In this document: piece after piece, positions 998-12,482 of the stretch
How the letters are laid out: each line of letters starts with the position of its first letter
How positions within the stretch are numbered: the stretch's first letter is position 1
Source of the DNA: a virus
Virus record (IMG/VR): IMGVR_UViG_3300017717_000117
Coordinates: 1 to 20,780 of that record
Length of the DNA stretch: 20,780 bases
Reading direction: 5' to 3' (one strand)
Made by a program: the position numbers and the translations under genes
The notes under the pieces: model-generated
What the model was told of the DNA's origin: nothing
Database searches by the model: none
Seen by the model: only the letters and a program-made list of their open reading frames with translations

Positions 998-2886
998 TAG
1001 CCCCTCCTACCGTCAGGCCGCATATCCATCCTAGGTGCGCCTAGCTTCCACGTTACTCCGGCTGCTGTAGACTCAATCTTAATCGACATCTGCCTACCCC
1101 GTACCCGTGTAAAGACCTGCCCGGTAAACTCCTCTATGGGCACTGTGGCTGTTCTAGTAACAGTAGCGTTGCTGTCTCCACCCACAGAAGCTGGGTTATA
1201 CCGCCCAGAACCCGAGTCTTTCAAAGGGTTTAGAGTCATCGTAGCTGCCGGGGCACCGGTTGTAGAACCTTCAAAGGTCATGTCTGGTAACATCTTGTTG
1301 ACCAGCATAAACCGATCCCCGTCATCCAGATCAAACTGTGTAGAAGTTATACTGGCTGCTATAGCCGCAGGAACGCCTGTCTCGTTGTCGTCCACGCCTT
1401 TCTCATGGTTGACTAGTTTGTTGGTAAAAGTAGCTGCTAGGGGGAAATCACGTAGGTCAGAGTCGAGCCATGCAGACCGCGCCAGATTACCGTAGTACCA
1501 GATGTTTTGTACGTAGTTATACACCACGTAGCGGTCATTCTGAGTAGCTCCTCCAGAACAATAAAACCACCATATCTCGTCAAACTGCTCGTTGGAGCCA
1601 CAGATTACTTGGTCAGCTTGACCTTGGTTAAAGTCATCAAATATATAACTACGCAGCTCGCAGGGTAGTGTCTTAACAGTACCGTCGTAGTAGTAAAACT
1701 TATTTATGCCCATCCAGTAAGCAATGTTGTTTGAGTACACAGCCGAATTCGGCCCAGCTATAGTGATGTTTGAGCCAAGAAGCTGCGCTCCCCATACCTC
1801 TGGGGCACCTAGATACTGTAGGCCGTACAGGGCTGCATCTGACCAGACCAACACTTCCTGACGTGCTTGGATAGCGTCTATGATTTCTGTACCTTCTGAC
1901 AGGCGTAGACTACCCGCTTGATTAGTAGCCGCAGGTGTCCAGTTAGTTACATCTTCTTGGTCTGACCACCGGATGAGCATTGGGTCAAGCGTAGAACCGC
2001 CCAAATCGTTTGCTCCAAAACAGAACGCAAAACGAAATATGTCAGACACAAACGCTAGATTTACTACAGTAGGTACACCAGACGCACCTCCCAAAGAACT
2101 TACAGCAACAGCGCGTGTGTTAACCCCGTTGCTTGCGTCCCAGTAGTATGGTGCCCCACCTCTGTGGGCAAAGAATAAGTCCTCACCGAAGTTAGCTTGG
2201 CTCCAAATACGCATGGGAGCCAGTGTTGTACCGCCTGTGCCCCATGTGCCATTACCCCAACGCCCTGCACCCCAACCAGTGAACGGTACCTCAATCTCGT
2301 TACCCGTATTGATCTGGTAGGTGCCTACTACGCTACCCCCGCCGTTGCCTGTATCTGACCCGTTAGCCAGCACAGTATTACCGGAAGTGTCTTTGGCCTC
2401 TACAGTGTAGGAGTTGCCGTTGATTATGGTAGCTATCTGATACTCTTGATTAAGCACCGCCGCAGTAATATTGCCGCCTAGAGAAGCAGCTCCAGAGAAA
2501 GTTACAAAGTCATTCTGGAGGGCACCATGAGAAGAATCGGTTATAGTAAGAGTGGCATCGCCGTTTACGGCTGCAAACGTAACATCGCCCGCTGCTGTGG
2601 TTGCTCTAATAGGGGTAACGTCAAAGTAAGCCCCACCTCGCTCAATGTAGTATTTGAGGTGAGTACCTACAGAAACAAGATTTTGGAGACTGAGAGTAGC
2701 CCAGTTGAATAGCGAACGTGCTACACCTAGGTAAGTATTAGCAGAGAGCTGCTCCCACCCGCCTATTTTCTGGGGTAGGCCACGTCTGAAGCGCACCTTA
2801 TCAGTCTCGTACCACTGACCTTCGGCGGCATACCGGGTAGTTTCTCTGTTTACTCCCGGTTTGAATTGTAATTTTCTAACTGCCAT
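997..2886 (-). CDS. Phage tail/virion protein (possible P22 gp10-like hub)
   Basis: This 629-residue protein begins with ATG at 2886, with TGAGGT just upstream. Its N-terminus (KLQFKPGVNRETTRYA, then W-Y-E/D-x-D-K-V-R-F-R-x-G, then K-I-G-G-W) is a signature I know from many marine podovirus-like phages, where it starts a large structural protein. The body is beta-rich with many Trp and Tyr (WGAGRWGNGTWG, MRIWSQANFGEDLFFAHRGG, NEQFDEIWWFYCSGG), consistent with a propeller-like tail-hub fold. The closest named role is the P22 gp10-type tail accessory (DNA stabilisation/hub) protein, but that assignment is an inference from context and fold. Its stop overlaps the GTG start of the next gene. Confidence 0.75.
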   Translation of the reverse strand: MAVRKLQFKPGVNRETTRYAAEGQWYETDKVRFRRGLPQKIGGWEQLSANTYLGVARSLFNWATLSLQNLVSVGTHLKYYIERGGAYFDVTPIRATTAAGDVTFAAVNGDATLTITDSSHGALQNDFVTFSGAASLGGNITAAVLNQEYQIATIINGNSYTVEAKDTSGNTVLANGSDTGNGGGSVVGTYQINTGNEIEVPFTGWGAGRWGNGTWGTGGTTLAPMRIWSQANFGEDLFFAHRGGAPYYWDASNGVNTRAVAVSSLGGASGVPTVVNLAFVSDIFRFAFCFGANDLGGSTLDPMLIRWSDQEDVTNWTPAATNQAGSLRLSEGTEIIDAIQARQEVLVWSDAALYGLQYLGAPEVWGAQLLGSNITIAGPNSAVYSNNIAYWMGINKFYYYDGTVKTLPCELRSYIFDDFNQGQADQVICGSNEQFDEIWWFYCSGGATQNDRYVVYNYVQNIWYYGNLARSAWLDSDLRDFPLAATFTNKLVNHEKGVDDNETGVPAAIAASITSTQFDLDDGDRFMLVNKMLPDMTFEGSTTGAPAATMTLNPLKDSGSGRYNPASVGGDSNATVTRTATVPIEEFTGQVFTRVRGRQMSIKIESTAAGVTWKLGAPRMDMRPDGRRG

Positions 2887-2893
2887 TTAGACC

Positions 2894-3319
2894 TCAATCC
2901 GCGTACTCACCACTAGCAATCATGTCAGTCAGCTCTAAAGCACGGCCACCAACTTGTTTTGCCCACCTAGAGTCCAAGAACTCTGTAGAGGCTTCTGTGT
3001 AGTTCCCCGCTTCCATAGCGGTTAATGCGCGTCGAAAGCCACGTAAACGCGTAGCTCCGAGGTTAAATGCAATGTCAATAATAGCATCTTTTCGTACATC
3101 ATCAAGGCTGTTAAACCACTCATACTCTGTAGCTAATTCCTTGATTACACGCTCAATGTCGTTCTGTAGGAGGTAATCTATCTCGTCCTCAGACAGCCCC
3201 ATACCGCCTTTCTGGTCGATATTACGGCCTACACCTACAGTGACCTTACCTTCGGAGCATTCATACGCATGAGTTTCTGTACCCTCATGGCGCTTCAGCA
3301 TCTTAATTAGCTTTTCCAT
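2894..3319 (-). CDS. Endolysin, GH24 (T4-type) lysozyme
   Basis: This 141-residue muramidase hydrolyses the MurNAc-GlcNAc bond of peptidoglycan at the end of infection. The N-terminus aligns by eye with T4 lysozyme: Glu12 in RHEG is the catalytic acid, Cys21 takes the place of Asp20, and Thr27 in KVTVGVGR matches Thr26. This fits the known Glu-8-Asp/Cys-5-Thr triad spacing of the family. The C-terminal lobe keeps the helices DAIIDIAFNLG and RRALTAMEAGNY, followed by W-A-x-Q-V-G-G-R. It is slightly shorter than T4 lysozyme (164 residues). There is no signal peptide or N-terminal anchor, so it must rely on a holin. Its start overlaps the stop of the holin gene by one base (TAATG). Confidence 0.93.
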   Translation of the reverse strand: MEKLIKMLKRHEGTETHAYECSEGKVTVGVGRNIDQKGGMGLSEDEIDYLLQNDIERVIKELATEYEWFNSLDDVRKDAIIDIAFNLGATRLRGFRRALTAMEAGNYTEASTEFLDSRWAKQVGGRALELTDMIASGEYAD

Positions 3320-3795
3320 TATTGACCTCGGTTATTACTACTACCAAAGAAGAAGGCGCTGATACCGCTAATAAGACCACCTAAATATCCCAAGATAATG
3401 TTAGCCAAGGCATCATCCACCGCTTCAGCACGGAAAGTTACTAGAAATATGTATGCCAAGAACCCCATCAGACTAATAATGGCAAATATCTTTGGGGTGG
3501 GGTCTTCCCCGAATATCTCTCTGGCAGCTTGTCTGTCCTGCACCTCGACCTTAAAGTTTTCTAGGTCTATCTTGCGTTCTTCTAGCGTCTTGGCAAACTC
3601 TAGCTCTGCCTCTTGTAAGGCACTAATGGAATCTGGATGCTCTTCGATGTATTTCTCGATCTTGGCTGGATCAGTCGTGTTGCTTACGCCTAGCTTGTCA
3701 GCGACTAGCTTCACAGCCATACCGCCCATAGGCCCACCAATGGCTTTGCCCACTGTTGGTGCAAGCGTAGATAGGAGTCCTTTTAACTTACTCAT
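3319..3795 (-). CDS. Holin, 3TM gene-transfer-agent type
   Basis: This 158-residue membrane protein probably forms the inner-membrane lesion that lets the lysozyme reach the cell wall. The N-terminal 35 residues are glycine-rich and mildly hydrophobic (TVGKAIGGPMGGMAVKLVADKLG). A charged helical region with coiled-coil character follows (about 45-95). Two clear membrane segments come next, at about 103-122 (IFAIISLMGFLAYIFLVTF) and 130-150 (ANIILGYLGGLISGISAFFF), with a short polar tail. This layout matches the 3TM holin family first described for gene-transfer-agent release. The gene lies directly upstream of the lysozyme with a one-base overlap, the classic holin-endolysin pair. Confidence 0.85.
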   Translation of the reverse strand: MSKLKGLLSTLAPTVGKAIGGPMGGMAVKLVADKLGVSNTTDPAKIEKYIEEHPDSISALQEAELEFAKTLEERKIDLENFKVEVQDRQAAREIFGEDPTPKIFAIISLMGFLAYIFLVTFRAEAVDDALANIILGYLGGLISGISAFFFGSSNNRGQ

Positions 3796-4695
3796 CTAAA
3801 CCTCGATCATAAACGTGCTTTTGGGCGGGTTTTCCACCCTGTCTCTTGGATAAGGGGCAATGCCCAAATGGTCTATAATTATACCAAAGCTCTCTATTTT
3901 CTGAGCAACATCGTTAATGTTCTGCTTTGCGTAGGCTGCTGTACCAACATTGTCGAACCACATGTTAAAACGTCCGTGGTTATCGCTGACCCTACCTTGC
4001 AACCAAATGTGATCTCTATTGCCTATCTCTGTATCTATGTTGATTTCCCAATCATCATCACTGCCTAGTAACTGATCAAAGCCCATCCATTCTTCTTCAC
4101 CAGCATTTATCTCGCCATCACCGAAGTCAACTGAATTACTGCCCTCCGCACCCTCCTCAAACTCTCTGGCTTCTGGCGCTTCCCAGAGGAAGCTGGACGG
4201 GTCAGACTTTTCAAACTCAATTTCGACAGGAGGTAAGTCAGCAAACAAATCTAGCTCGCCAGATACAGAGCTTTCCCCGCTTTCTATTGCCGCTTTTAAA
4301 TCTGTGAGCAGTTTTTCAACATCTGCGCTGTCATCTACTTTGGCAGATGTATTTTCAAATATTTGGTCTAGCTTGGACTGTCTTGTCGGCTCTTGTCCTT
4401 CTGTCTTTGGCCCTTCTTTTACTTCTGTGTCAGCAGGAGTTTCTGTTGACGTGACCCTGACATTTACATCTTCACCAGAAACCTGTGCGAAACTGCCTAC
4501 TAAATTTACTGTACCGTTTTCAGTCTCTAGCGTTATAGACTTGCCGTCTTCAGATACCGTCCCTTTTACTACCTGTCCTTCCGGTAGGTCTAGCTCTTGA
4601 ACCGCATCAGACGATAACGCTATCGTCAAATTCTGAGGGGCGTCTACCTGCGTTGCTGTATAGTTCGCAACGGAGTTTTCTGGCGATATAATCAT
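3796..4695 (-). CDS. Acidic protein resembling flagellar hook-length control protein FliK
   Basis: This 299-residue protein is in three parts. Residues about 20-75 form a small beta domain with GQVVKGTVSEDGKSITL, like the N-terminal beta region of some FliK proteins. Residues about 85-215 are low-complexity, acidic and rich in Glu, Asp and Ser. The C-terminal 75 residues (IWLQGRVSDNHGRFNMWFDN, then AQKIESFGIIIDHLGI) have the strand-strand-helix pattern of the FliK C-terminal domain. FliK sets flagellar hook length and switches export specificity; whether the phage protein does anything similar is unknown. It sits directly before the holin (TAG then ATG, no gap) and after a lipoprotein gene. 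The family call is my reading of the pattern only; a plain phage protein of unknown role is the alternative. Confidence 0.7.
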   Translation of the reverse strand: MIISPENSVANYTATQVDAPQNLTIALSSDAVQELDLPEGQVVKGTVSEDGKSITLETENGTVNLVGSFAQVSGEDVNVRVTSTETPADTEVKEGPKTEGQEPTRQSKLDQIFENTSAKVDDSADVEKLLTDLKAAIESGESSVSGELDLFADLPPVEIEFEKSDPSSFLWEAPEAREFEEGAEGSNSVDFGDGEINAGEEEWMGFDQLLGSDDDWEINIDTEIGNRDHIWLQGRVSDNHGRFNMWFDNVGTAAYAKQNINDVAQKIESFGIIIDHLGIAPYPRDRVENPPKSTFMIEV

Positions 4696-4733: not shown

Positions 4734-4964
4734 CTAGGTTTCGGATGACTTTCCCTCAGTATCCTCCTCGACGATTTCGTCGATGGTTTCACATACATCA
4801 GGAACAGCTACGCCTGTAGTTACTTCAGTAGCCACACGCCCCACAGCCCGAATGCCTTTATAAACACCAGAGCAATACAGGTCTTTATTAGCGATCATAT
4901 CCTCAGATACGGTGCATCCGGTGAATACAAATAAACTACTCAGGACTAGGGAAATCAATTTCAT
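4734..4964 (-). CDS. Small lipoprotein, possible outer-membrane spanin subunit
   Basis: This 76-residue protein has a short positively charged start (MK), a hydrophobic stretch (LISLVLSSLFVF) and a lipobox-like FTGC. That predicts cleavage before Cys17 and lipid attachment. The mature part is about 60 residues, with two further cysteines (C31, C58) and an acidic tail (EIVEEDTEG). Its start lies inside the 3' end of the lipase gene (29-base overlap), so the two are translated in sequence. In a lysis block, a small lipoprotein suggests an o-spanin (Rz1-like) role. However, it lacks the proline-rich body common in Rz1, so it could instead be another envelope lipoprotein. Confidence 0.72.
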   Translation of the reverse strand: MKLISLVLSSLFVFTGCTVSEDMIANKDLYCSGVYKGIRAVGRVATEVTTGVAVPDVCETIDEIVEEDTEGKSSET

Positions 4965-5709
4965 GCTCGATCCTCTTTAGCTCTCTTAGTTCGCCTTTAG
5001 TCAGGGGGACAACTTTCTTAGCTTTTCGTTCTTGCTCGTCAAGGAACAGCTTCAGCCTTTCTTTATAGCCATCCATCATGTGGTCTGCTATACGGTCTTT
5101 CAGATCGCCCCTGTCAGCAACTCTGGTTTCTTTGCTGGGGTTTATGTAATCAGGGCCAGTATTGCTGAAATACAGCATAGTCTGTGAGCTTGAAGGGCCG
5201 TAGCAAAAGCGTGGGATTCTAGCCACCATATCGCTGCCCTGCACACAGGATATTTGGTTATCCAGCGTCATTGGCTTCTTAAAGCCCTTGAAAAACACGT
5301 TTGGCTTACCAAAGGTAATCAAGTTTATGTTGTCGTGTTTGCCATTCAGCATAGAGGCAGATAGCTCTGCCAGCGCACCACCAAGACTATGGCCGCAGAT
5401 CAAAGTGCGTTTCTTAGGGTCTATGTGTTTTTTGACTTCTTTCCAAACTGACCTATGTGCCATAGCAAACCCGCCGTGGCACAGTCTACCCGCATATGGC
5501 ACGGGGACTACGAGCGCGTCTGTTAGCCAATCCCTGCCCTGCTGTGTGCCCCTGAAGGCTATGATGTCTATGGTCTTACGCTTTGCTACATATACTGTAG
5601 TAGATGTCCACTTGCTCTCTATCTTAATAGCGTCTACTTTGTTCTGCTTTTTGTAGGCGCTCATCGCCCAGCTACAAGCCATATTGAGAAGGACAGGATC
5701 GAGTTTCAT
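4936..5709 (-). CDS. Class 3 lipase (alpha/beta hydrolase)
   Basis: This 257-residue protein is recognisable as a fungal-type class 3 lipase. An oxyanion/strand motif (IIAFRGTQQGRDWLTD) lies at about 49-64, and HGGFA at 78-82. The nucleophile elbow GHSLGGAL has Ser108, the next strand reads ITFGKPNV (131-138), the acid is Asp160 in QGSDMVARIPR, and the base is His210 in DHMMDGY. All three catalytic residues are present, so it should hydrolyse acylglycerol or phospholipid esters. No signal peptide is seen; it would act in the cytoplasm or on membranes once the holin has fired. It overlaps the upstream small membrane protein (ATGA) and the downstream lipoprotein gene. Its place in the lysis block suggests a part in envelope breakdown, or host lipid turnover during infection. 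Confidence 0.9.
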   Translation of the reverse strand: MKLDPVLLNMACSWAMSAYKKQNKVDAIKIESKWTSTTVYVAKRKTIDIIAFRGTQQGRDWLTDALVVPVPYAGRLCHGGFAMAHRSVWKEVKKHIDPKKRTLICGHSLGGALAELSASMLNGKHDNINLITFGKPNVFFKGFKKPMTLDNQISCVQGSDMVARIPRFCYGPSSSQTMLYFSNTGPDYINPSKETRVADRGDLKDRIADHMMDGYKERLKLFLDEQERKAKKVVPLTKGELRELKRIEHEIDFPSPE

Positions 5710-5933
5710 TTATCAGCCTTGTTGTCTAGTCGCTTGAAGATTGCACCCAGCAAGTCTTTGATCTCGCGTATGTCCTCGCGGTAATCGTCTTTGGCAACGT
5801 ACTTCTCAGGTATCTGCTTCATGTCCGAGTCAATACGGTCTAGCAGGGTATAGATGCGGGTGTACGCCCACGCTGCCAGAAAGCCACCGATCAGGATAAT
5901 TACGTCAAAGACTATCTGACCCGTAAGCTGCAT
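5706..5933 (-). CDS. Small membrane-anchored coiled-coil protein (possible i-spanin or holin accessory)
   Basis: This 75-residue protein has one N-terminal membrane segment at about 7-24 (IVFDVIILIGGFLAAWAY). A charged helical tail with heptad character follows (LLDRIDSDMKQIPEKY, then REDIREIKDLLGAIFKRLDN). Type II membrane proteins with a coiled-coil ectodomain are typical of inner-membrane spanins and of XhlA-like lysis accessories. The start overlaps the stop of the preceding gene (TAATG), and its own stop overlaps the lipase start (ATGA). The lysis role is inferred from topology and neighbours; no family signature was recognised. Confidence 0.75.
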   Translation of the reverse strand: MQLTGQIVFDVIILIGGFLAAWAYTRIYTLLDRIDSDMKQIPEKYVAKDDYREDIREIKDLLGAIFKRLDNKADK

Positions 5934-6205
5934 TACTCAGACTCTTCCTCTTCTTCAATTCTTGGGTCTACCCAACCTTCTACCGCCGTGAACGTGCCGT
6001 CAGACGCGCATGTATATTTGCACCCATACCAGTCGGTTGGCTCGCTAACTCCAGTGATAAGAGTGGCGTTGCCGCTGTTGAGGTCACCAATGATAAACTC
6101 AGCAGGATCGCCAACAGTGATCGTGTCGCTTCCCATCGTGACTGACTTGTCATCAGCAAAGAGGTATCTGGATGTATTTGTTGCATTGTCTACGATTGTC
6201 TTCAT
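5933..6205 (-). CDS. Small hypothetical protein following the tail fibres
   Basis: This 90-residue acidic protein has an N-terminal MKTIVDNATNTSRYLFADDK and a central part of short strands (TITVGDPAEFIIGD). Near the C-terminus there is a W-Y-G-C-K-Y-T-C segment, then GTFTAVEGWVDPR and a run of glutamates. Short proteins starting in this style and ending near a Trp-x-Asp-Pro motif often follow fibre genes in marine phages. A chaperone or fibre-associated role is possible but not shown. It starts three bases after the 850-residue fibre gene stops, so it belongs to the same transcript. Confidence 0.7.
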   Translation of the reverse strand: MKTIVDNATNTSRYLFADDKSVTMGSDTITVGDPAEFIIGDLNSGNATLITGVSEPTDWYGCKYTCASDGTFTAVEGWVDPRIEEEEESE

Positions 6206-6208
6206 GCC

Positions 6209-8761
6209 TTACCCTTTCAATAGAAGTGTTGTGTTTGCTAAAGCCTTGCCAGCCGTCACGCTGGAAGACGTTGTTGCGAGTGTGCCATCGTCTTGGACGT
6301 AGTAGGTTGAGCCTATGGTCAGACCAACAGTTTTGCTAGAAGTTTGAACAACCGCACGACCTTGATCGGAAGCACCGCCGTCATTAAAAGCGACAACAAA
6401 TTTGTCTGCGTTAGTGTCGTAAACTGTACTTGTATATTCTGTAGAACCTGTCTCAAAAACCACGGAAGCACCAAAGGAAAAAGTTGAGCCGCTAACTATT
6501 GCCGGAACACAAGTGCCAGCATTGCCGCTATTATTTTTAAAATTTAATGCAACTATTCCATTATCAGGATCATACGCAGAACTTAGCCAACCACCTACCG
6601 CCAGACTTTCTGGAAAAGCAACTGGCGTACCAAAGGTAATGTTAGTTCCAGACACTGTACCAATAGCAACTTTTCCAGCGTTACTGTCTGAAACATCTTG
6701 GTAGGAAACAATAATTTTTTGATTTCCAGAATCATAAGTAGTTGCTATATACGAACCTGAGACATTAGCGATCACTGTCTCTGAACCAAACGATATAGAT
6801 GTTCCGCTTACGGTTCCTACTATAGAAGTTGGGTAATTTGAGTTACCTGCATCAGAATAACTTATGACAACTTTATTGTTAGTAGAATCGTATGCAGCAG
6901 CGCATTTCGTGGTTGCTGCGTTGTTAAACGTGACCGCTGTGCCAAAACTCAAAGTAGTCCCAGACAAAGTTCCAACGACAGCCTTTCCGAGTTGACTTTC
7001 ACTGCCCGGCAATTTGTAAGCAATGACCATCTTTTCAGCGTTTGTGTCGAAAACAACTTGCATTTCACTTATGTTGTTAGAATCAAATTGTGTAACAGTG
7101 TAGGACGAAAAGTCTATGGTTGTCCCAGATACAGCCCCGTATATGGCCTTCCCTGTCGAACCAGCACTGTTAAAAGCAACCATTACTTTCTGCGCTGTTG
7201 AATTATAAGCGGCAGTGCATTCAGTAGTACTAGCAGAATTAAAAACAACAGGGGTTCCAAACGTAATTGAAGTGCCGCTTACAGTCCCAACAGCAGACGT
7301 ACCGTAGTTAGAGTTGTTGTTGTCTCTATAAAAAGTAACAACACGCTGGGCATTCGCGTCATAGGCCGCAGCCATATGTTGCCCTGTGTCACTAGTGTCT
7401 CCCGCTGTTCCGACTGAGATAACAGGCACATCAGGGACAAGACTACTGTTAGTAATCACCCCGCCCTCGACAACCACTTCGCCTGATGCAGAGTTGTTGA
7501 TAGCTTGGTTGGTGATGCCTGCGAAGTCGGATGAGTTTGTCGCAGTGTAAGCGGGAGTAATAGTAATAGCCGTTCCATAATTAGAATTACCAACATCCCT
7601 ATAAGCGACCACCACCTGTTCCTCAGTAGAGTCATATGCAGAATATCCGTTTTCGTCCCCTGAATTTGCTAACTTAATATCAGACCCTTTAGAAAAAGTA
7701 GTACCGCTCACTGTGCAAATTATAGCGGTTAGTTCGACGTTACTTTTCCTACCAGAGTAAACAACTTTTTGTGCTGCGGTGTGATATGCCAATGATGCAA
7801 AATTAGTTGTTCCAGCAGTCATCATACTGTCTCTTGTTCCGAACGAAATAGAAGTGCCTGAAACAGTTCCTATGATCCCAAATACATCCGCGCTTTCTCT
7901 GTAAGCAACGAATATTTTATTTTGACCAACATCGTGAACGGCTCGGTTTACTCTAGTTTTTTCATTAGAGCCATAAGTCCCTGCGCTGCCCCACGAAATA
8001 GACGTTCCAGACACAGTGCCGACCTGCGCTCTTCCCGTATTTGTGCTAGAACTACCATACACGACAACGACCTTTCCACTTGTGGAGTCGTAAGTTAAAC
8101 CCGGTTGAAACACGTTACCATTGTTGTACTCGACTGCTGATCCAAAAGTAATAGATGTTCCACTTACAGTTCCCACCGCTGAATATCCGTGGTCGCTTTG
8201 CGACCCGTCTCCATATGTAACTACAACTTTATCGTTTCCAGAATCATAAGCAGAATCGTGGTAGTCTAAATTATTGGAACTCCATTGAGTAGTTGAACCA
8301 AAGCTAACTGTAGTTCCAGACACCGTGGCTACAATAGAATTGCCACCACTTCCCGGTTTATACGTCACGACAAATTTTCCCGCGCCAGAACTGTATACAG
8401 CCGTTATAAATGAACAACTAGCACTGTGAAATACAGCGGGAGTTCCATAAGTCAATGTACTACCCGATAACGTAGCAACCACCGCTGTTCCGTAGCCAGA
8501 ATTGCCCGCATCTGAGTACACAATTAAAAGTTTCTTATTGGTGGGATCATAGGCAACTGAGTTATCATCACTTGTCGCAGATTCGTAAACAGCAGCAGTG
8601 CCTACCGCTTCACTTATAGACCTCGCAGTAGACGAAACACCCTTCACAGTCCCATTGCTCTGTAAGGCTACAGTCTGACCCGTAGTTAAATTACCGTCAG
8701 CCGTGGCCGTTATTACTTTTGCGCCGCCACCTGCTGGCAGTAAATCGCTTAGATTGCTCAT
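6209..8761 (-). CDS. Tail-fibre-like protein with two seven-repeat beta-propeller modules
   Basis: This 850-residue protein shares its N-terminus (MSNLSDLLPAGGG, then TADGNLTTGQTVALQSNGTV) and C-terminus (GLTIGSTYYVQDDG, then AGKALANTTLLLKG) with the next two fibre genes. Between them are about 14 repeats of about 50 residues with the pattern (A/V)YDSxxxKVVVxYxDxGNSxYGTAxVGTVSGTSISFG. I count seven before the linker SDFAGITNQAINNSASGEVV (about residues 400-420) and seven after it. Seven repeats are what a seven-bladed beta-propeller needs, so two propellers in tandem are likely. The linker resembles the fibre-shaft domain that closes each paralogue. No enzyme motif is seen. A receptor-binding or fibre role is inferred. 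Its start overlaps the stop of the upstream paralogue (ATGA). Confidence 0.85.
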   Translation of the reverse strand: MSNLSDLLPAGGGAKVITATADGNLTTGQTVALQSNGTVKGVSSTARSISEAVGTAAVYESATSDDNSVAYDPTNKKLLIVYSDAGNSGYGTAVVATLSGSTLTYGTPAVFHSASCSFITAVYSSGAGKFVVTYKPGSGGNSIVATVSGTTVSFGSTTQWSSNNLDYHDSAYDSGNDKVVVTYGDGSQSDHGYSAVGTVSGTSITFGSAVEYNNGNVFQPGLTYDSTSGKVVVVYGSSSTNTGRAQVGTVSGTSISWGSAGTYGSNEKTRVNRAVHDVGQNKIFVAYRESADVFGIIGTVSGTSISFGTRDSMMTAGTTNFASLAYHTAAQKVVYSGRKSNVELTAIICTVSGTTFSKGSDIKLANSGDENGYSAYDSTEEQVVVAYRDVGNSNYGTAITITPAYTATNSSDFAGITNQAINNSASGEVVVEGGVITNSSLVPDVPVISVGTAGDTSDTGQHMAAAYDANAQRVVTFYRDNNNSNYGTSAVGTVSGTSITFGTPVVFNSASTTECTAAYNSTAQKVMVAFNSAGSTGKAIYGAVSGTTIDFSSYTVTQFDSNNISEMQVVFDTNAEKMVIAYKLPGSESQLGKAVVGTLSGTTLSFGTAVTFNNAATTKCAAAYDSTNNKVVISYSDAGNSNYPTSIVGTVSGTSISFGSETVIANVSGSYIATTYDSGNQKIIVSYQDVSDSNAGKVAIGTVSGTNITFGTPVAFPESLAVGGWLSSAYDPDNGIVALNFKNNSGNAGTCVPAIVSGSTFSFGASVVFETGSTEYTSTVYDTNADKFVVAFNDGGASDQGRAVVQTSSKTVGLTIGSTYYVQDDGTLATTSSSVTAGKALANTTLLLKG
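6330..7430 (-). repeat. Second seven-repeat propeller module of the 850-residue fibre
   Basis: Seven further repeats of the same type, from AYDANAQRVVTFYRDNNNS to VYDTNADKFVVAFNDGG. They are separated from the first module by a fibre-shaft-like linker. The presence of a second full set of seven suggests duplication of a whole propeller domain. Boundaries are approximate. Confidence 0.75.
7550..8620 (-). repeat. First seven-repeat propeller module of the 850-residue fibre
   Basis: Seven repeats of about 50 residues, each centred on (A/V/T)-Y-(D/H/S)-x4-K-(V/L/F)-V-V-x-Y. The strand VSGTSISFGS closes most of them. Repeats five and six are the most divergent (VHDVGQNKIFVAY; AYHTAAQKVVYSG). Boundaries are approximate. 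Confidence 0.75.
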
Positions 8762-11010
8762 GTGCTGTAATCCAGATTAATGCTTGTGGTGGACATCGCT
8801 TTGCCAGCTTCTACGGTAGTTGAGTTTGTGGCGGTGGAAGTAGTTGCGTACTGATTAACATCGTCCCCAGTATCACCACAAACATACATCTTGCTGCCAT
8901 CCGCGCTAAAGGCTAATCCTTGAGGGCTGGTTTCTTGAGAACTAACGGAAAACTCTACGCTGGCATATGATGCGCTTGATACGTCAAAACCAGTGGTCAA
9001 TGTATATTTGTAAACTTTCTGGTTATCTCTAGCAAGCACATACAGCTCTGTTCCGTCTGTGTTAAAGACCCCTTCTTTAGGCTGTGTAGTTTGAGAAGCC
9101 AGACTAAAGCTGTCTACAAATGATGCGCTTGATACGTCAAAGCCAGTAGACAGTGTGTACTCGTTAATATCATTTCCAGTATCACCGACAATAAACATCT
9201 TAGTCCCATCGGTATTAAAAGTTATACCTTGTGCCTCTGTTTCCTGTCCCGATATATCAAACGCTTGAGTGTAGGAGGCGCTAGATACATCGAAGCCCGT
9301 GCTTAAAGCATACTGAGCCACAGTGTCCTCTGTCTCGCCAACAATATACATTTTAGTGCCATCAGTGTTGAAAGCTACACTCATAGGTGCTGCTTGTTGC
9401 CCACTTACACTAAAGCTATCCACGAATGATGCGGTGCTTACGTCAAAGCCCGTGCTTAGGGTGTACTCGTTTACGTCATCTCCAGTATTACCGACAACAA
9501 ACATCTTAGTACCCGCAGGGTTAAAGGCCACTCCTGTCGGAAAAGTATCTTGTGATGAAACACTGAATGCTTGTGTATAAGAGCCGTTGGCAATATCGTA
9601 ATTAACGGCAGAAGTTGCCGTGTTTAGTGAGCCGTCATCCTGCACATAGTAAATAGCGTTAGGGGTAAGACCACTCAACCCGTTAGCTGCAATCCCGCCC
9701 TTCATCGTGATGTTGCCGCTTGCTGCGTTGGATATTGCTGCGTCTGCTATGCCGAGGAAAGAAGAGACGTTGGTGAAGGCAGGGGTAAATGTATTTGCCG
9801 CAGCACTCGCATACCCAACCGCATGTGCAACAATGTGTTTGTCTGCGGAGGTATCGTAAGTTACTCCTAGAGTCCCTGAGTTCACTGTGCCTTCTATTTC
9901 TGAAGTGCCATCCACTGTAATAGACGTACCACTCAAAGATAGTGTCAAGGCTTGTACCTTGTAAGACTTGTCTACATAAAAGAAAACTAACTTCTTGCGG
10001 TCAGGATCATATTGCATTACGGGTCTTAGGCTGTTTTGCGCACCACCGTAAATACCGTTATCAATAATTTCAGTGATTGACTCTGCTGTTACGCTGGTTC
10101 CTGAAACACTGCACACAATTGCATGCGCGTCATTCGAGCTATCTTCAATTTGGAAAACAATCTTGTTTTCAGCAGAGTGATACGCTCCAGTAATAGCATC
10201 TTGAACGTTTATAGAATTGTTCAATACCGTGCTGGAGCCGAATGAAATACTTGTCCCCGAAATAGTGCTGACCGCAGCATTTGCATAATCTCCACTTTTA
10301 AACGCAACCACAGTTTTTTGCACTACGGGGTCGTACACGACTGCGTGACCAATACTATTATTGTCTGAAGCAATAACGGTGGGAGTGCCAAAGCTTATAG
10401 ACGTACCACTGATCGTGCCTACCACACCAGTAACGTATTGGTTGTTTGCTGCGGCTTTGTATACAACGACTATTTTTCCAGAAGCAACGTCATACCCAAT
10501 GGCAGTACCATTTTCTGTGCTTGCTGCTTCTACAGAAGTTGCTGAACCGAATGAAACAGTCGTACCAGAAATTGTTGCGACAACCATCTTTACGCCAGAA
10601 GATGTACCTGTTCTGTAGCCAAAAACAATTTTATTATTACTGCTATCAAAAACTGCATTGGTTATATCGTAAAATTGGCCGGACTCTACAACAACTGGAG
10701 TTCCATAAGAAATAGATGTACCACTAACAGTGCCTACGACTCCGTATAATCCGTTGTCACCAGAGGTGTCTGAGTTGTATATAATTAAAACTTTATTTGC
10801 ATTAGAATCGTAAGCGGCGGCATTCAAATTAACTCTTGACGCATGATATTGCTGTGCGCTGCCAACAGCAGCAGCAAAGTTACCTACCGCCTTCACCGTT
10901 CCGGCAGTTTGTAATGCCACAGTCTGACCGCTTGCAATGGCCCCATCAGCAGTAAAACTTAGCTGCTTACTGGCCGCACCTGCTGGTAAAAGATCGCTTA
11001 GATTTGTCAT
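8758..11010 (-). CDS. Tail-fibre-like protein: seven-repeat propeller plus a different five-repeat module
   Basis: This 750-residue paralogue of its two neighbours has the shared N-terminus (MTNLSDLLPAGAASKQ). Seven repeats of the YDSxxNKxVxxY/TVSGTSISFG type run to about residue 400. The shared linker/shaft follows (SSFLGIADAAISNAASGNITMKGG, in two halves; GLTPNAIYYVQDDGSL). It then carries an unrelated set of five repeats of about 51 residues: AFNxDGTKMFVVGxTGDDVNEYTLSTGFDVSSAS. That second set resembles YVTN/NHL-like propeller repeats in surface proteins. The protein ends with the common motif (VEAGKAMSTTSINL). The mixed make-up points to module exchange among fibres. Function as a host-recognition fibre is inferred. 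Confidence 0.85.
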   Translation of the reverse strand: MTNLSDLLPAGAASKQLSFTADGAIASGQTVALQTAGTVKAVGNFAAAVGSAQQYHASRVNLNAAAYDSNANKVLIIYNSDTSGDNGLYGVVGTVSGTSISYGTPVVVESGQFYDITNAVFDSSNNKIVFGYRTGTSSGVKMVVATISGTTVSFGSATSVEAASTENGTAIGYDVASGKIVVVYKAAANNQYVTGVVGTISGTSISFGTPTVIASDNNSIGHAVVYDPVVQKTVVAFKSGDYANAAVSTISGTSISFGSSTVLNNSINVQDAITGAYHSAENKIVFQIEDSSNDAHAIVCSVSGTSVTAESITEIIDNGIYGGAQNSLRPVMQYDPDRKKLVFFYVDKSYKVQALTLSLSGTSITVDGTSEIEGTVNSGTLGVTYDTSADKHIVAHAVGYASAAANTFTPAFTNVSSFLGIADAAISNAASGNITMKGGIAANGLSGLTPNAIYYVQDDGSLNTATSAVNYDIANGSYTQAFSVSSQDTFPTGVAFNPAGTKMFVVGNTGDDVNEYTLSTGFDVSTASFVDSFSVSGQQAAPMSVAFNTDGTKMYIVGETEDTVAQYALSTGFDVSSASYTQAFDISGQETEAQGITFNTDGTKMFIVGDTGNDINEYTLSTGFDVSSASFVDSFSLASQTTQPKEGVFNTDGTELYVLARDNQKVYKYTLTTGFDVSSASYASVEFSVSSQETSPQGLAFSADGSKMYVCGDTGDDVNQYATTSTATNSTTVEAGKAMSTTSINLDYST
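8830..9605 (-). repeat. Five-copy repeat module of a second type
   Basis: Five copies of about 51 residues with FNxDGTKMxxVGxTxDDVNEYxLSTGFDVSSAS. At DNA level the copies are close: the 21-base string beginning tgatgcgcttgat is identical at 8968-8988 and 9121-9141, 153 bases (51 codons) apart. This points to recent duplication or conversion between copies. Confidence 0.85.
9775..10900 (-). repeat. Seven-repeat propeller module of the 750-residue fibre
   Basis: Seven repeats from AYDSNANKVLIIYNSDTSG to TYDTSADKHIVAHAVGYAS, the last three more divergent than those in the 491-residue paralogue. Boundaries are approximate. Confidence 0.72.
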
Positions 11011-12482
11011 GTCAAATCCATCATGTTAATTGTTGTGGCAGTGACAGCCTGTCCTATCTTCACCGCTGGGCTTGTGCTGGTAGTAGAGACGCTGCCATTA
11101 CTTTGGACGTAGTAATCAGAACCTATAGTCAGCGAAGACTGCTTGCTGTTGATGCTGCCCTTGACGTTGATCTTGCCTGACGCAGTATCTGAAATTGCAG
11201 CATCTGCTAGACCAAGGAAATTTGTCGAAGTGAGATTTGTATTCTCATACGCCACTTGAAACACAACGGCTGTTCCGTAGTATGAATTACCTTGATCTCG
11301 ATAACCAATAACAACTTTGTTTAGGTTGGAATCAAATGTTGATGCTATATAAGCGGTGCTTCCGGCATTGAAAACTACTTCTGATCCAAATGAAATGCTC
11401 GTTCCGCTAACCGTACCCACAACAAGAGTGCCGTGAAACGAATTCCCATCATCTCTGTAACAAAGCACCACTTTGTTTGCATTCGAGTCAAATGTTGCAG
11501 ACTGCCAAGCAGTGGCAGCACTATCAACGGTTACAGGTGTACCAAACGATATTGACGTTCCACTGACAGTACCAACTACCGCCGTTCCTTTGCCTCCATC
11601 TCCACTTCTATAAAAAATAACTACCTTATTTGAATTTGAATCGAACGTTAACGATGCATAGGTATCGACAGGGTACGAAGTATCAAAATCCACTGACGAG
11701 CCAAACGATATGCTCGTTCCGCTTACCGTTCCTATAATAGCGCCAGCAGCATCAGCACTATCTTTAAAAGCAATAACGATTTTATTTGAATTTGAATCAA
11801 ACGTTGCAGATATAGGGTCGGTATCAGTGCTATTAAATGCTTGTTTAGTACCAAAGGATATGCTCGTACCGCTCACCGTTCCTACGATAGCCGTACCTCT
11901 ACCACTATTACCATCGTCTCCGAACACAATAACGACTTTATTATTAGATGAGTCAAATACTGCTGATATGTTTTCGGTTTGAGCTGTGTTAAATACTGCC
12001 TCAGAACCAAAAGATATAGATGTACCACTTACGGTGCCTACTATCGCTGTACCGTAGCTTGAGTTTCCGTCATCTTGATAAGCAACTACAACTTTATTAT
12101 TAGATGAATCAAACGTTACTGCATTCATATCACTCTGATCAGAGTTATATACAACAGGCGTACCAAAAGTAATAGAGTTATCACTAGCTGGAGTACCTAC
12201 AACTGCGGTTCCGTAACCGGAGTTCGAAGCATCTCTATAGACAATAACAACTTTATTATTACTGGAGTCAAACGTTGCACCTGACCATACAATATTACCA
12301 CCGGATGATTTAAGCAGCGTTTCTGGCCCAATCGCTTGATCGGCTGAAGTTCCTGCTACCTGCGTAACCGTACCGTTATCATTCAGAATGACAGGCTTAC
12401 CAGAAGCGATAGTGCCACTGGCCGTGAACTCGACAATGTTCTGCCCACCACCGCTGGGCAGCAGATCAGAAAGATTACTCAT
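11007..12482 (-). CDS. Tail-fibre-like protein with one seven-repeat beta-propeller module
   Basis: This 491-residue protein is the shortest and most regular of the three paralogues. After the shared N-terminal strand region (MSNLSDLLPSGGGQN; ASGTIASGKPVILNDNGTV) come exactly seven repeats built on TFDSSNNKVVIVYRDDGNS, YGTAVVGTVSGTSISFG and a variable strand ending in F or V. The C-terminal part (NFLGLADAAISDTASGKINV; SLTIGSDYYVQSNGSVS) is the common fibre-shaft domain. The N- and C-terminal parts together look like one complete domain into which the propeller is inserted. The gene starts immediately upstream of the 12483 stop and overlaps the next gene by four bases (ATGA). A fibre/receptor-binding role is inferred from context. 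Confidence 0.85.
   Translation of the reverse strand: MSNLSDLLPSGGGQNIVEFTASGTIASGKPVILNDNGTVTQVAGTSADQAIGPETLLKSSGGNIVWSGATFDSSNNKVVIVYRDASNSGYGTAVVGTPASDNSITFGTPVVYNSDQSDMNAVTFDSSNNKVVVAYQDDGNSSYGTAIVGTVSGTSISFGSEAVFNTAQTENISAVFDSSNNKVVIVFGDDGNSGRGTAIVGTVSGTSISFGTKQAFNSTDTDPISATFDSNSNKIVIAFKDSADAAGAIIGTVSGTSISFGSSVDFDTSYPVDTYASLTFDSNSNKVVIFYRSGDGGKGTAVVGTVSGTSISFGTPVTVDSAATAWQSATFDSNANKVVLCYRDDGNSFHGTLVVGTVSGTSISFGSEVVFNAGSTAYIASTFDSNLNKVVIGYRDQGNSYYGTAVVFQVAYENTNLTSTNFLGLADAAISDTASGKINVKGSINSKQSSLTIGSDYYVQSNGSVSTTSTSPAVKIGQAVTATTINMMDLT
11270..12330 (-). repeat. Seven-repeat propeller module of the 491-residue fibre
   Basis: Seven repeats, each with (T/V)FDSxxNK(V/I)V, spaced 46-53 residues. 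The intervening GTVSGTSISFG is identical in most copies, making this the most regular module of the four. Confidence 0.85.

Follow-up and report, generated by a model that had tools for sequence, protein, structure and literature searches.

A class 3 lipase gene beside an overlapping lipoprotein gene in a viral lysis block: a candidate lysis-stage enzyme

Introduction

What does a lipase do among the lysis genes of a virus? In the window analyzed here, which is the whole 20,780-nt stretch of the IMG/VR virus record IMGVR_UViG_3300017717_000117, a gene for a predicted class 3 lipase overlaps the genes on both of its sides and lies upstream of genes for a holin-like protein and a lysozyme. Lipolytic enzymes of phage lysis cassettes have already been described. 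One is LysB of mycobacteriophages such as Ms6, whose gene belongs to the lysis cassette; this lipolytic GxSxG enzyme removes the outer lipid barrier besides the action of holin and endolysin, its target being the ester between mycolic acids and arabinogalactan (PMC8309991). The Pseudomonas syringae phage psageB1 and its relatives encode a GDSL lipase upstream of the holin and endolysin (PMC12173070; gene order of psageB1, PMC8537276), and the active site of this GDSL lipase was required for the antibacterial effect of a chimera (PMC12173070). GDSL lipases also occur as variable genes in phages (PMC7468147).

Methods

A search of IMG/VR gave 172 stretches related to the window, of which 80 were kept; one search for class 3 lipase relatives kept the best 80 of 581, and further loci were gathered via the lysozyme and the neighboring structural protein (phrog_3287). 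After removal of near-duplicates, the lipase alignment comprised 96 rows, namely the window, 93 IMG/VR loci, P-SSM2 and the marine virus AG-345-O18. A lipase-neutral sample was built from loci found with the lysozyme or the structural protein as query, deduplicated from 148 to 103, and the 53 with at least 2600 nt upstream were kept for comparison. A separate count, which started from the lipoprotein, covered 73 contigs with at least 750 nt upstream.

Results

Gene content of the lysis block

The genes running from 6205 to 2886 share one strand, and most of them overlap or abut their neighbors. They encode, in this order, orf90, a membrane protein read as a transmembrane (TM) segment plus coiled coil, the lipase, a lipoprotein, a 299-aa protein, a holin-like protein and a T4-type lysozyme. 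The features of the block are as follows.

5933-6205, minus strand: 90-aa protein; 1-nt overlap with the coiled-coil gene
5706-5933, minus strand: membrane protein, 75 aa; phrog_462 match (1.4e-6); N-terminal hydrophobic segment and a stretch read by eye as coiled coil
4936-5709, minus strand: predicted class 3 lipase, 257 aa; ATG start; Pfam, PHROG and PDB sequence matches
5386-5388, minus strand: codon of lipase Ser108, within GHSLGG
5230-5232, minus strand: codon of lipase Asp160, within GSDMVARIP
5080-5082, minus strand: codon of lipase His210, within DHMMDGY
4734-4964, minus strand: lipoprotein, 76 aa; lipobox FTGC and two further conserved cysteines (31, 58)
3796-4695, minus strand: optional 299-aa protein, between the lipoprotein and the holin-like gene
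3319-3795, minus strand: holin-like membrane protein, 158 aa; phrog_1544, a family of function not known (7.5e-21)
2894-3319, minus strand: T4-lysozyme-type endolysin, 141 aa; PF00959 Phage_lysozyme (2.1e-15) and phrog_7 endolysin (3.9e-23)

The start of the lipoprotein gene lies within the lipase gene, behind a Shine-Dalgarno-like AGAGGA. The lipoprotein resembles an o-spanin in being a small lipoprotein with a lipobox, in which Cys17 is invariant among the nine aligned sequences and is preceded by a hydrophobic stretch; its AlphaFold model was too poor for use (pLDDT 56), and no homolog was found in named phages at E values up to 0.1. The product of 3319-3795 is termed holin-like by its position and hydrophobic segments only, two of which are C-terminal in several relatives. 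No signal sequence was recognized in the lysozyme by reading. The 299-aa protein had no Pfam match and no PHROG match better than 0.099, and its gene was present at 28 of 228 loci, a count made before deduplication, in which L081, itself a slice of the window, is included. The 90-aa protein had no family match in Pfam or PHROG, and the distance of its gene from the lipase varies among relatives. In a scan for promoters and terminators, the values fell inside the spread of shuffles. Ahead of the block, three consecutive repeat proteins of 850, 750 and 491 aa occupy positions 6209-12482, with recurring VSGTSISFG-type motifs (by reading), and possibly contribute fiber or adhesin diversity.

Identity and predicted fold of the lipase

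The product of the 4936-5709 gene matched the Pfam family PF01764 (Lipase_3) with E=5e-19 and 69 bits, above the cut-off of 22, and the esterase/lipase family phrog_21992 with 6.9e-21, and a phmmer search of the PDB returned the Thermomyces lanuginosus lipase 5ap9 (8.3e-9). In NCBIfam, the sole match was SA1320, far under its cut-off. The motifs FRGT, HGGF and GHSLGG, which are usual in class 3 lipases, are all present, and no second domain was found within the 257 residues by Pfam and PHROG searches. The AlphaFold model was of moderate quality (pLDDT only 66), and its top Foldseek matches were feruloyl esterase A (1.2e-7) and the Thermomyces lipase (3.1e-6), with TM-scores of 0.5-0.6 at best; the modeled fold is consistent with an alpha/beta hydrolase like the fungal lipases. 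Judged from its sequence, the gene product is thus a predicted enzyme, an alpha/beta hydrolase of class 3, the fungal-lipase type, in which the triad is intact.

A first-pass annotation of this DNA had described an intact class 3 lipase inside the lysis block, and the database matches, the triad and the lysozyme neighbor bear this out. Its placement of Ser108, Asp160 and His210 was confirmed by alignment, and its reading that the protein has no signal peptide agrees with our own reading of the N-terminus, MKLDPVLL. The two overlaps it reported were likewise recovered, at 4 nt with the membrane gene 5706-5933 and 29 nt with the lipoprotein gene 4734-4964.

Conservation of the lipase among relatives

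Among the rows of the alignment with a residue at the respective position, Ser108 is kept in 93 of 93, Asp160 in 94 of 94 and His210 in all 96; the gaps at the triad belong to ORFs of 55-101 aa that are truncated at contig ends. Loss of the catalytic residues in relatives, which had been named beforehand as evidence against an active enzyme, was therefore not seen, the triad being invariant wherever it is covered. Two pairs with the window had dS below 1 and gave dN/dS values of 0.057 and 0.114, the remaining pairs being at or near saturation. The lipase is under strong purifying selection in these two measurable pairs. One copy, that of L140, has 12 residues gone including the HxGF motif and is possibly a decaying gene or an assembly variant, so that not every copy of the lipase need be active.

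The window had no DNA match to named phages, and the 14 named-phage records with a lipase match were all below 60% identity. DSL-LC04, CRP-901, Pag-Yong1, HTVC023P and HTVC027P, which are relatives via the neighboring structural protein, were absent among these 14 records, and no annotated lipase was found at the structural protein in any of the five. The hosts of the named relatives of this structural protein are Gram-negative, Roseobacter, Pelagibacter, cyanobacteria and Pseudomonas being among them.

Gene order around the lipase

Synteny was counted among loci close to the query (65% identity or more), so the following counts hold for this clade and not for the class 3 lipases of phages at large. 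Downstream of the lipase, a holin-like and/or lysozyme gene was found in all 75 of the 94 deduplicated loci whose downstream sequence reached at least 1900 nt and, before deduplication of the 116 loci fetched by the lipase query, in 91 of 91. The lipase is in this sense encoded with holin and endolysin, the former being labeled holin-like from its position. The lipoprotein gene directly followed the lipase in 88 of 88 deduplicated loci and in 109 of 109 with at least 300 nt before deduplication, and the two genes overlap by 1-53 nt in 79 of 79 loci when the lipoprotein start is set by a fixed rule. The coiled-coil gene was adjacent to the lipase in 52 of 83 deduplicated loci (66 of 102 before). 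In a separate count of loci with both ends set, the overlap between the two was 4 nt in 52 of 52. Eight exceptions without an adjacent coiled-coil gene were inspected, and most of them have other membrane proteins upstream of the lipase.

The suggestion of the first-pass annotation that the three overlapping genes act together agrees with the constant pairing of lipase and lipoprotein but not with the coiled-coil gene, which is a neighbor in only 52 of 83 loci. The conserved synteny of lipase, lipoprotein and holin that it had proposed as a check was recovered when counted from the lipase (75/75 and 88/88) but was incomplete when counted from the lipoprotein, which has no adjoining lipase in four of 73 contigs. 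A strict three-gene unit was rejected on these two counts.

In seven loci (L319, L321, L330, L331 and L335-L337), the lipase, lipoprotein and holin-like genes are present and a lysozyme of the window's family was not found after them, so the endolysin may be encoded elsewhere or be of a different kind. In L330, the gene after the holin-like gene encodes a collagen-type tail-fiber-like protein.

Transfer of the block to an unrelated backbone

The contig L229 / G018:C76, of 49.6 kb, lies in a gammaproteobacterial bin and has a backbone unrelated to the window's lineage. Of the 61 ORFs of at least 60 aa on 42 kb of G018 (a span that includes the repeated part), eight match G013 and nine match G016 at 1e-5, compared with 42 of 75 shared by G013 and G016, both of the window's lineage. 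The matches are copies of the lipase, the holin-like gene, the lysozyme, the coiled-coil gene (G016 only) and one SNase, and nothing else. Across the lysis block the identities are 63-86%, and the G018 lipoprotein is present at 58% identity to that of the window. The occurrence of the same lysis block on an unrelated backbone indicates that the block, including the lipase, is exchanged as a unit, and of the arguments for assigning the lipase to lysis, this exchange is the strongest. The first part of this contig recurs after about 34.3 kb, which points to a circular or terminally redundant phage genome some 34 kb long.

Loci without the lipase and lipases without a lysis block

The 53 comparable loci of the lipase-neutral sample comprise 38 with both lipase and lipoprotein, two with a lipase and without a match to the window's lipoprotein family, and 13 with neither. 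Eleven of these 13 have a lysozyme of the window's family (two at weak scores), and L183 and L226 have none. No Lipase_3 match was found anywhere in the 12 lipase-free records that were searched whole (the longest 60.2 kb; some may be incomplete). Absence of the gene beside normal lysis genes in close relatives had been set in advance as grounds against the first-pass interpretation, and this was observed for part of the relatives, since 13 of 53 are without lipase and 11 of these have the lysozyme. The lipase gene is therefore accessory and not universal.

Class 3 lipases also occur outside lysis blocks. In a sister lipase clade of 15 loci (L367-L381), no lysis gene was found within the fetched stretch of any locus, and the triad is intact in the 14 rows covering the sites. 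One member that was compared is 48% identical to the window's lipase, and in L367, the one locus annotated, the lipase is flanked on one side by genes for a helicase and DNA polymerase A, and its neighbor on the opposite side is a small-terminase-like gene. The 62-kb contig G014 carries both kinds of lipase, the sister type at G014:C1:32951-33604. Likewise, no annotated lysis gene was seen within the 4-8 kb viewed around the class 3 lipases of P-SSM2, a Cylindrospermopsis virus, XacN1 and vir526; in P-SSM2 the surroundings are nucleotide-metabolism and hypothetical genes. These occurrences lower our confidence in a lysis role.

They would fit an auxiliary metabolic gene, whose product frees fatty acids from host lipids inside the cell during infection and whose position in the block would be due to late expression or to the convenience of the insertion site. 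The location of the sister lipases near replication genes, the surroundings of the P-SSM2 lipase, the signal peptide that is absent by reading and the 13 of 53 relatives without the gene are all in keeping with such an intracellular lipid mobilizer. Nevertheless, we consider this explanation unlikely, because in near relatives the lipase lies just before the holin-like and lysozyme genes without exception (75/75), because it overlaps both neighbors (by 4 nt and by 1-53 nt), and because it has been transferred together with the lysis genes.

The lipoprotein and its relation to the lipase

Counted from the lipoprotein, the lipase adjoins it in 69 of 73 contigs, and the remaining four, which are not near-duplicates of one another, keep the holin-like gene and the lysozyme. 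In three of the four, all fragments, the lipase is nowhere in the contig. The lipoprotein is thus a component of the lysis block that is usually, not always, accompanied by the lipase. In L171 and L176, where the lipase occurs without the window-type lipoprotein, a different lipoprotein follows it. In G032, the lysis block contains the lipoprotein and no lipase; a lipase 39% identical to that of the window is encoded about 11 kb from the lysis block, near a small-terminase-like gene (G032:C1:53762-54508, L460:15763-16509). In L206, a DUF1353 protein (2675-3046) takes the place of the lipase between a DUF6127 gene and a lipoprotein gene, a placement hinting at a lysis-related role for DUF1353; the PHROGs label for the family of this protein is tail assembly chaperone.

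Type VI lipase effectors are paired with lipoprotein immunity proteins, and the lipase and lipoprotein might by analogy form an enzyme-inhibitor pair, in which the lipoprotein restrains leaked lipase until lysis or guards against the lipases of other phages. Their adjacency in 88 of 88 loci, the gene overlap, and the lipobox and conserved cysteine pair of the lipoprotein are as such a pair would have them. An immunity protein is expected only with its lipase, however, and the lipoprotein stands without an adjoining lipase in four of 73 contigs, three of them (fragments) with none in the contig; in addition, the lipoprotein after the lipase is a different one in L171 and L176, and a similar-looking one occurs without lipase in L206 (by reading). 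We regard the pair as improbable, and in its strict form it is weakened by the unaccompanied and the exchanged lipoproteins.

The enzyme could also act outside the cell after lysis, clearing membrane debris or vesicles that trap progeny or stripping ester-linked groups off neighboring cells. Its place in the lysis block would suit this, and another phage lipase is described as degrading extracellular polymers (PMC12173070). Given that no second domain was found in the lipase and that the sequence data are fitted no better than by action at lysis, this explanation has little chance of being correct.

Topology of the coiled-coil protein and the spanin question

In all 56 coiled-coil proteins scored, more lysine and arginine residues follow the hydrophobic segment than precede it, which predicts an N-out/C-in orientation, the reverse of the N-in/C-out TM segment and periplasmic coiled coil of an i-spanin. 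The predicted cytoplasmic coil argues against an Rz/Rz1-type spanin pair. As in two-component Rz/Rz1 systems, the lysis block of the window does contain a small lipoprotein close to a protein with a TM segment and coiled coil; the difference lies in the opposite predicted topology of that protein. No i-spanin candidate was found among the lysis-block ORFs of the window, a 20.8-kb record, and a spanin may be encoded elsewhere. No tendency of the lipase and a longer Rz-like TM-coiled-coil protein to exclude each other was seen, the latter being present in 8 of 55 loci with the lipase and in 3 of 10 without it. It is very improbable that the coiled-coil protein is an i-spanin and the lipoprotein its o-spanin, with the lipase as a passenger between them. 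The gene order would match, and the farthest that two spanin genes were separated in Kongari et al. (PMC6139136) was about 1 kb, but the charge bias places the coil in the cytoplasm (56/56), and in 31 of 83 lipase loci the coiled-coil gene does not adjoin the lipase, with other membrane proteins upstream in most of the exceptions inspected.

Discussion

We give an even chance to the reading that the lipase is an optional lysis-stage (phospho)lipase, which would work like mycobacteriophage LysB and belongs to another family. The earlier interpretation, in which the enzyme may disrupt membranes at lysis or mobilize host lipids, is supported in part, by the triad, the purifying selection and the transferable block, but not in its three-gene form, and 13 of 53 relatives do without the gene. 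From the computed family, triad, conservation, gene order with its overlaps and block transfer, we infer an activity, a substrate, a time and place of action and a type of host envelope. The lipase would be part of a transferable late lysis module, and the hosts of the phages bearing it are probably Gram-negative; one such block lies in a gammaproteobacterial bin. The lipase has no signal peptide, like the lysozyme, and may therefore build up in the cytoplasm until the holin-like protein opens the inner membrane and gives it access to the envelope. There it would cleave membrane lipid esters, those of phospholipids in the inner membrane and in the inner leaflet of the outer one, and so weaken the last barrier while the lysozyme cuts the peptidoglycan. 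The lipoprotein would probably be an outer-membrane lysis component itself, and perhaps a docking or regulating partner of the enzyme.

The likeness to LysB is one of role, both being lipolytic GxSxG enzymes within a lysis cassette, whereas the enzyme of the window is a Lipase_3 protein whose gene overlaps a lipoprotein gene, and the hosts of the named relatives are Gram-negative. With psageB1, the window shares a lipase gene upstream of holin and endolysin, there in a Gram-negative phage, and the action suggested here would also resemble the role that has been proposed for the GDSL enzyme (PMC12173070); the psageB1 lipase differs in being of the GDSL family with a carbohydrate-binding domain and not of class 3, and the accessible parts of the sources mention no lipoprotein overlap. 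A likeness of family exists with PSSM2_200 of P-SSM2 and the protein of the marine virus AG-345-O18 (phrog_21992), which have 27-29% identity and the triad columns in common with the window's lipase; they are shorter (204-207 aa), the P-SSM2 gene has no annotated lysis gene within 8 kb, and the AG-345-O18 record carries no annotation. In the literature searched, which was covered in part, no description was found of a class 3 lipase in the lysis block of a Gram-negative phage.

A more tentative and rather doubtful extension is that Gram-negative phages devoid of spanins use a class 3 phospholipase, set free by the holin and guided by the outer-membrane lipoprotein, to digest the inner leaflet of the outer membrane, as a Gram-negative counterpart of LysB. 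In Kongari et al., no spanin was found in 91 of 677 phages, and another route of outer-membrane disruption was asked about (PMC6139136). The conserved, transferable block described here combines a lipase that looks intact with a lipoprotein of its own, and no spanin was seen in the window; it is a testable candidate for this question and occurs in many contigs of uncultured viruses (172 relatives in IMG/VR). If the extension is true, enzymatic breach would be a further route of outer-membrane disruption besides those by spanins and disruptins.
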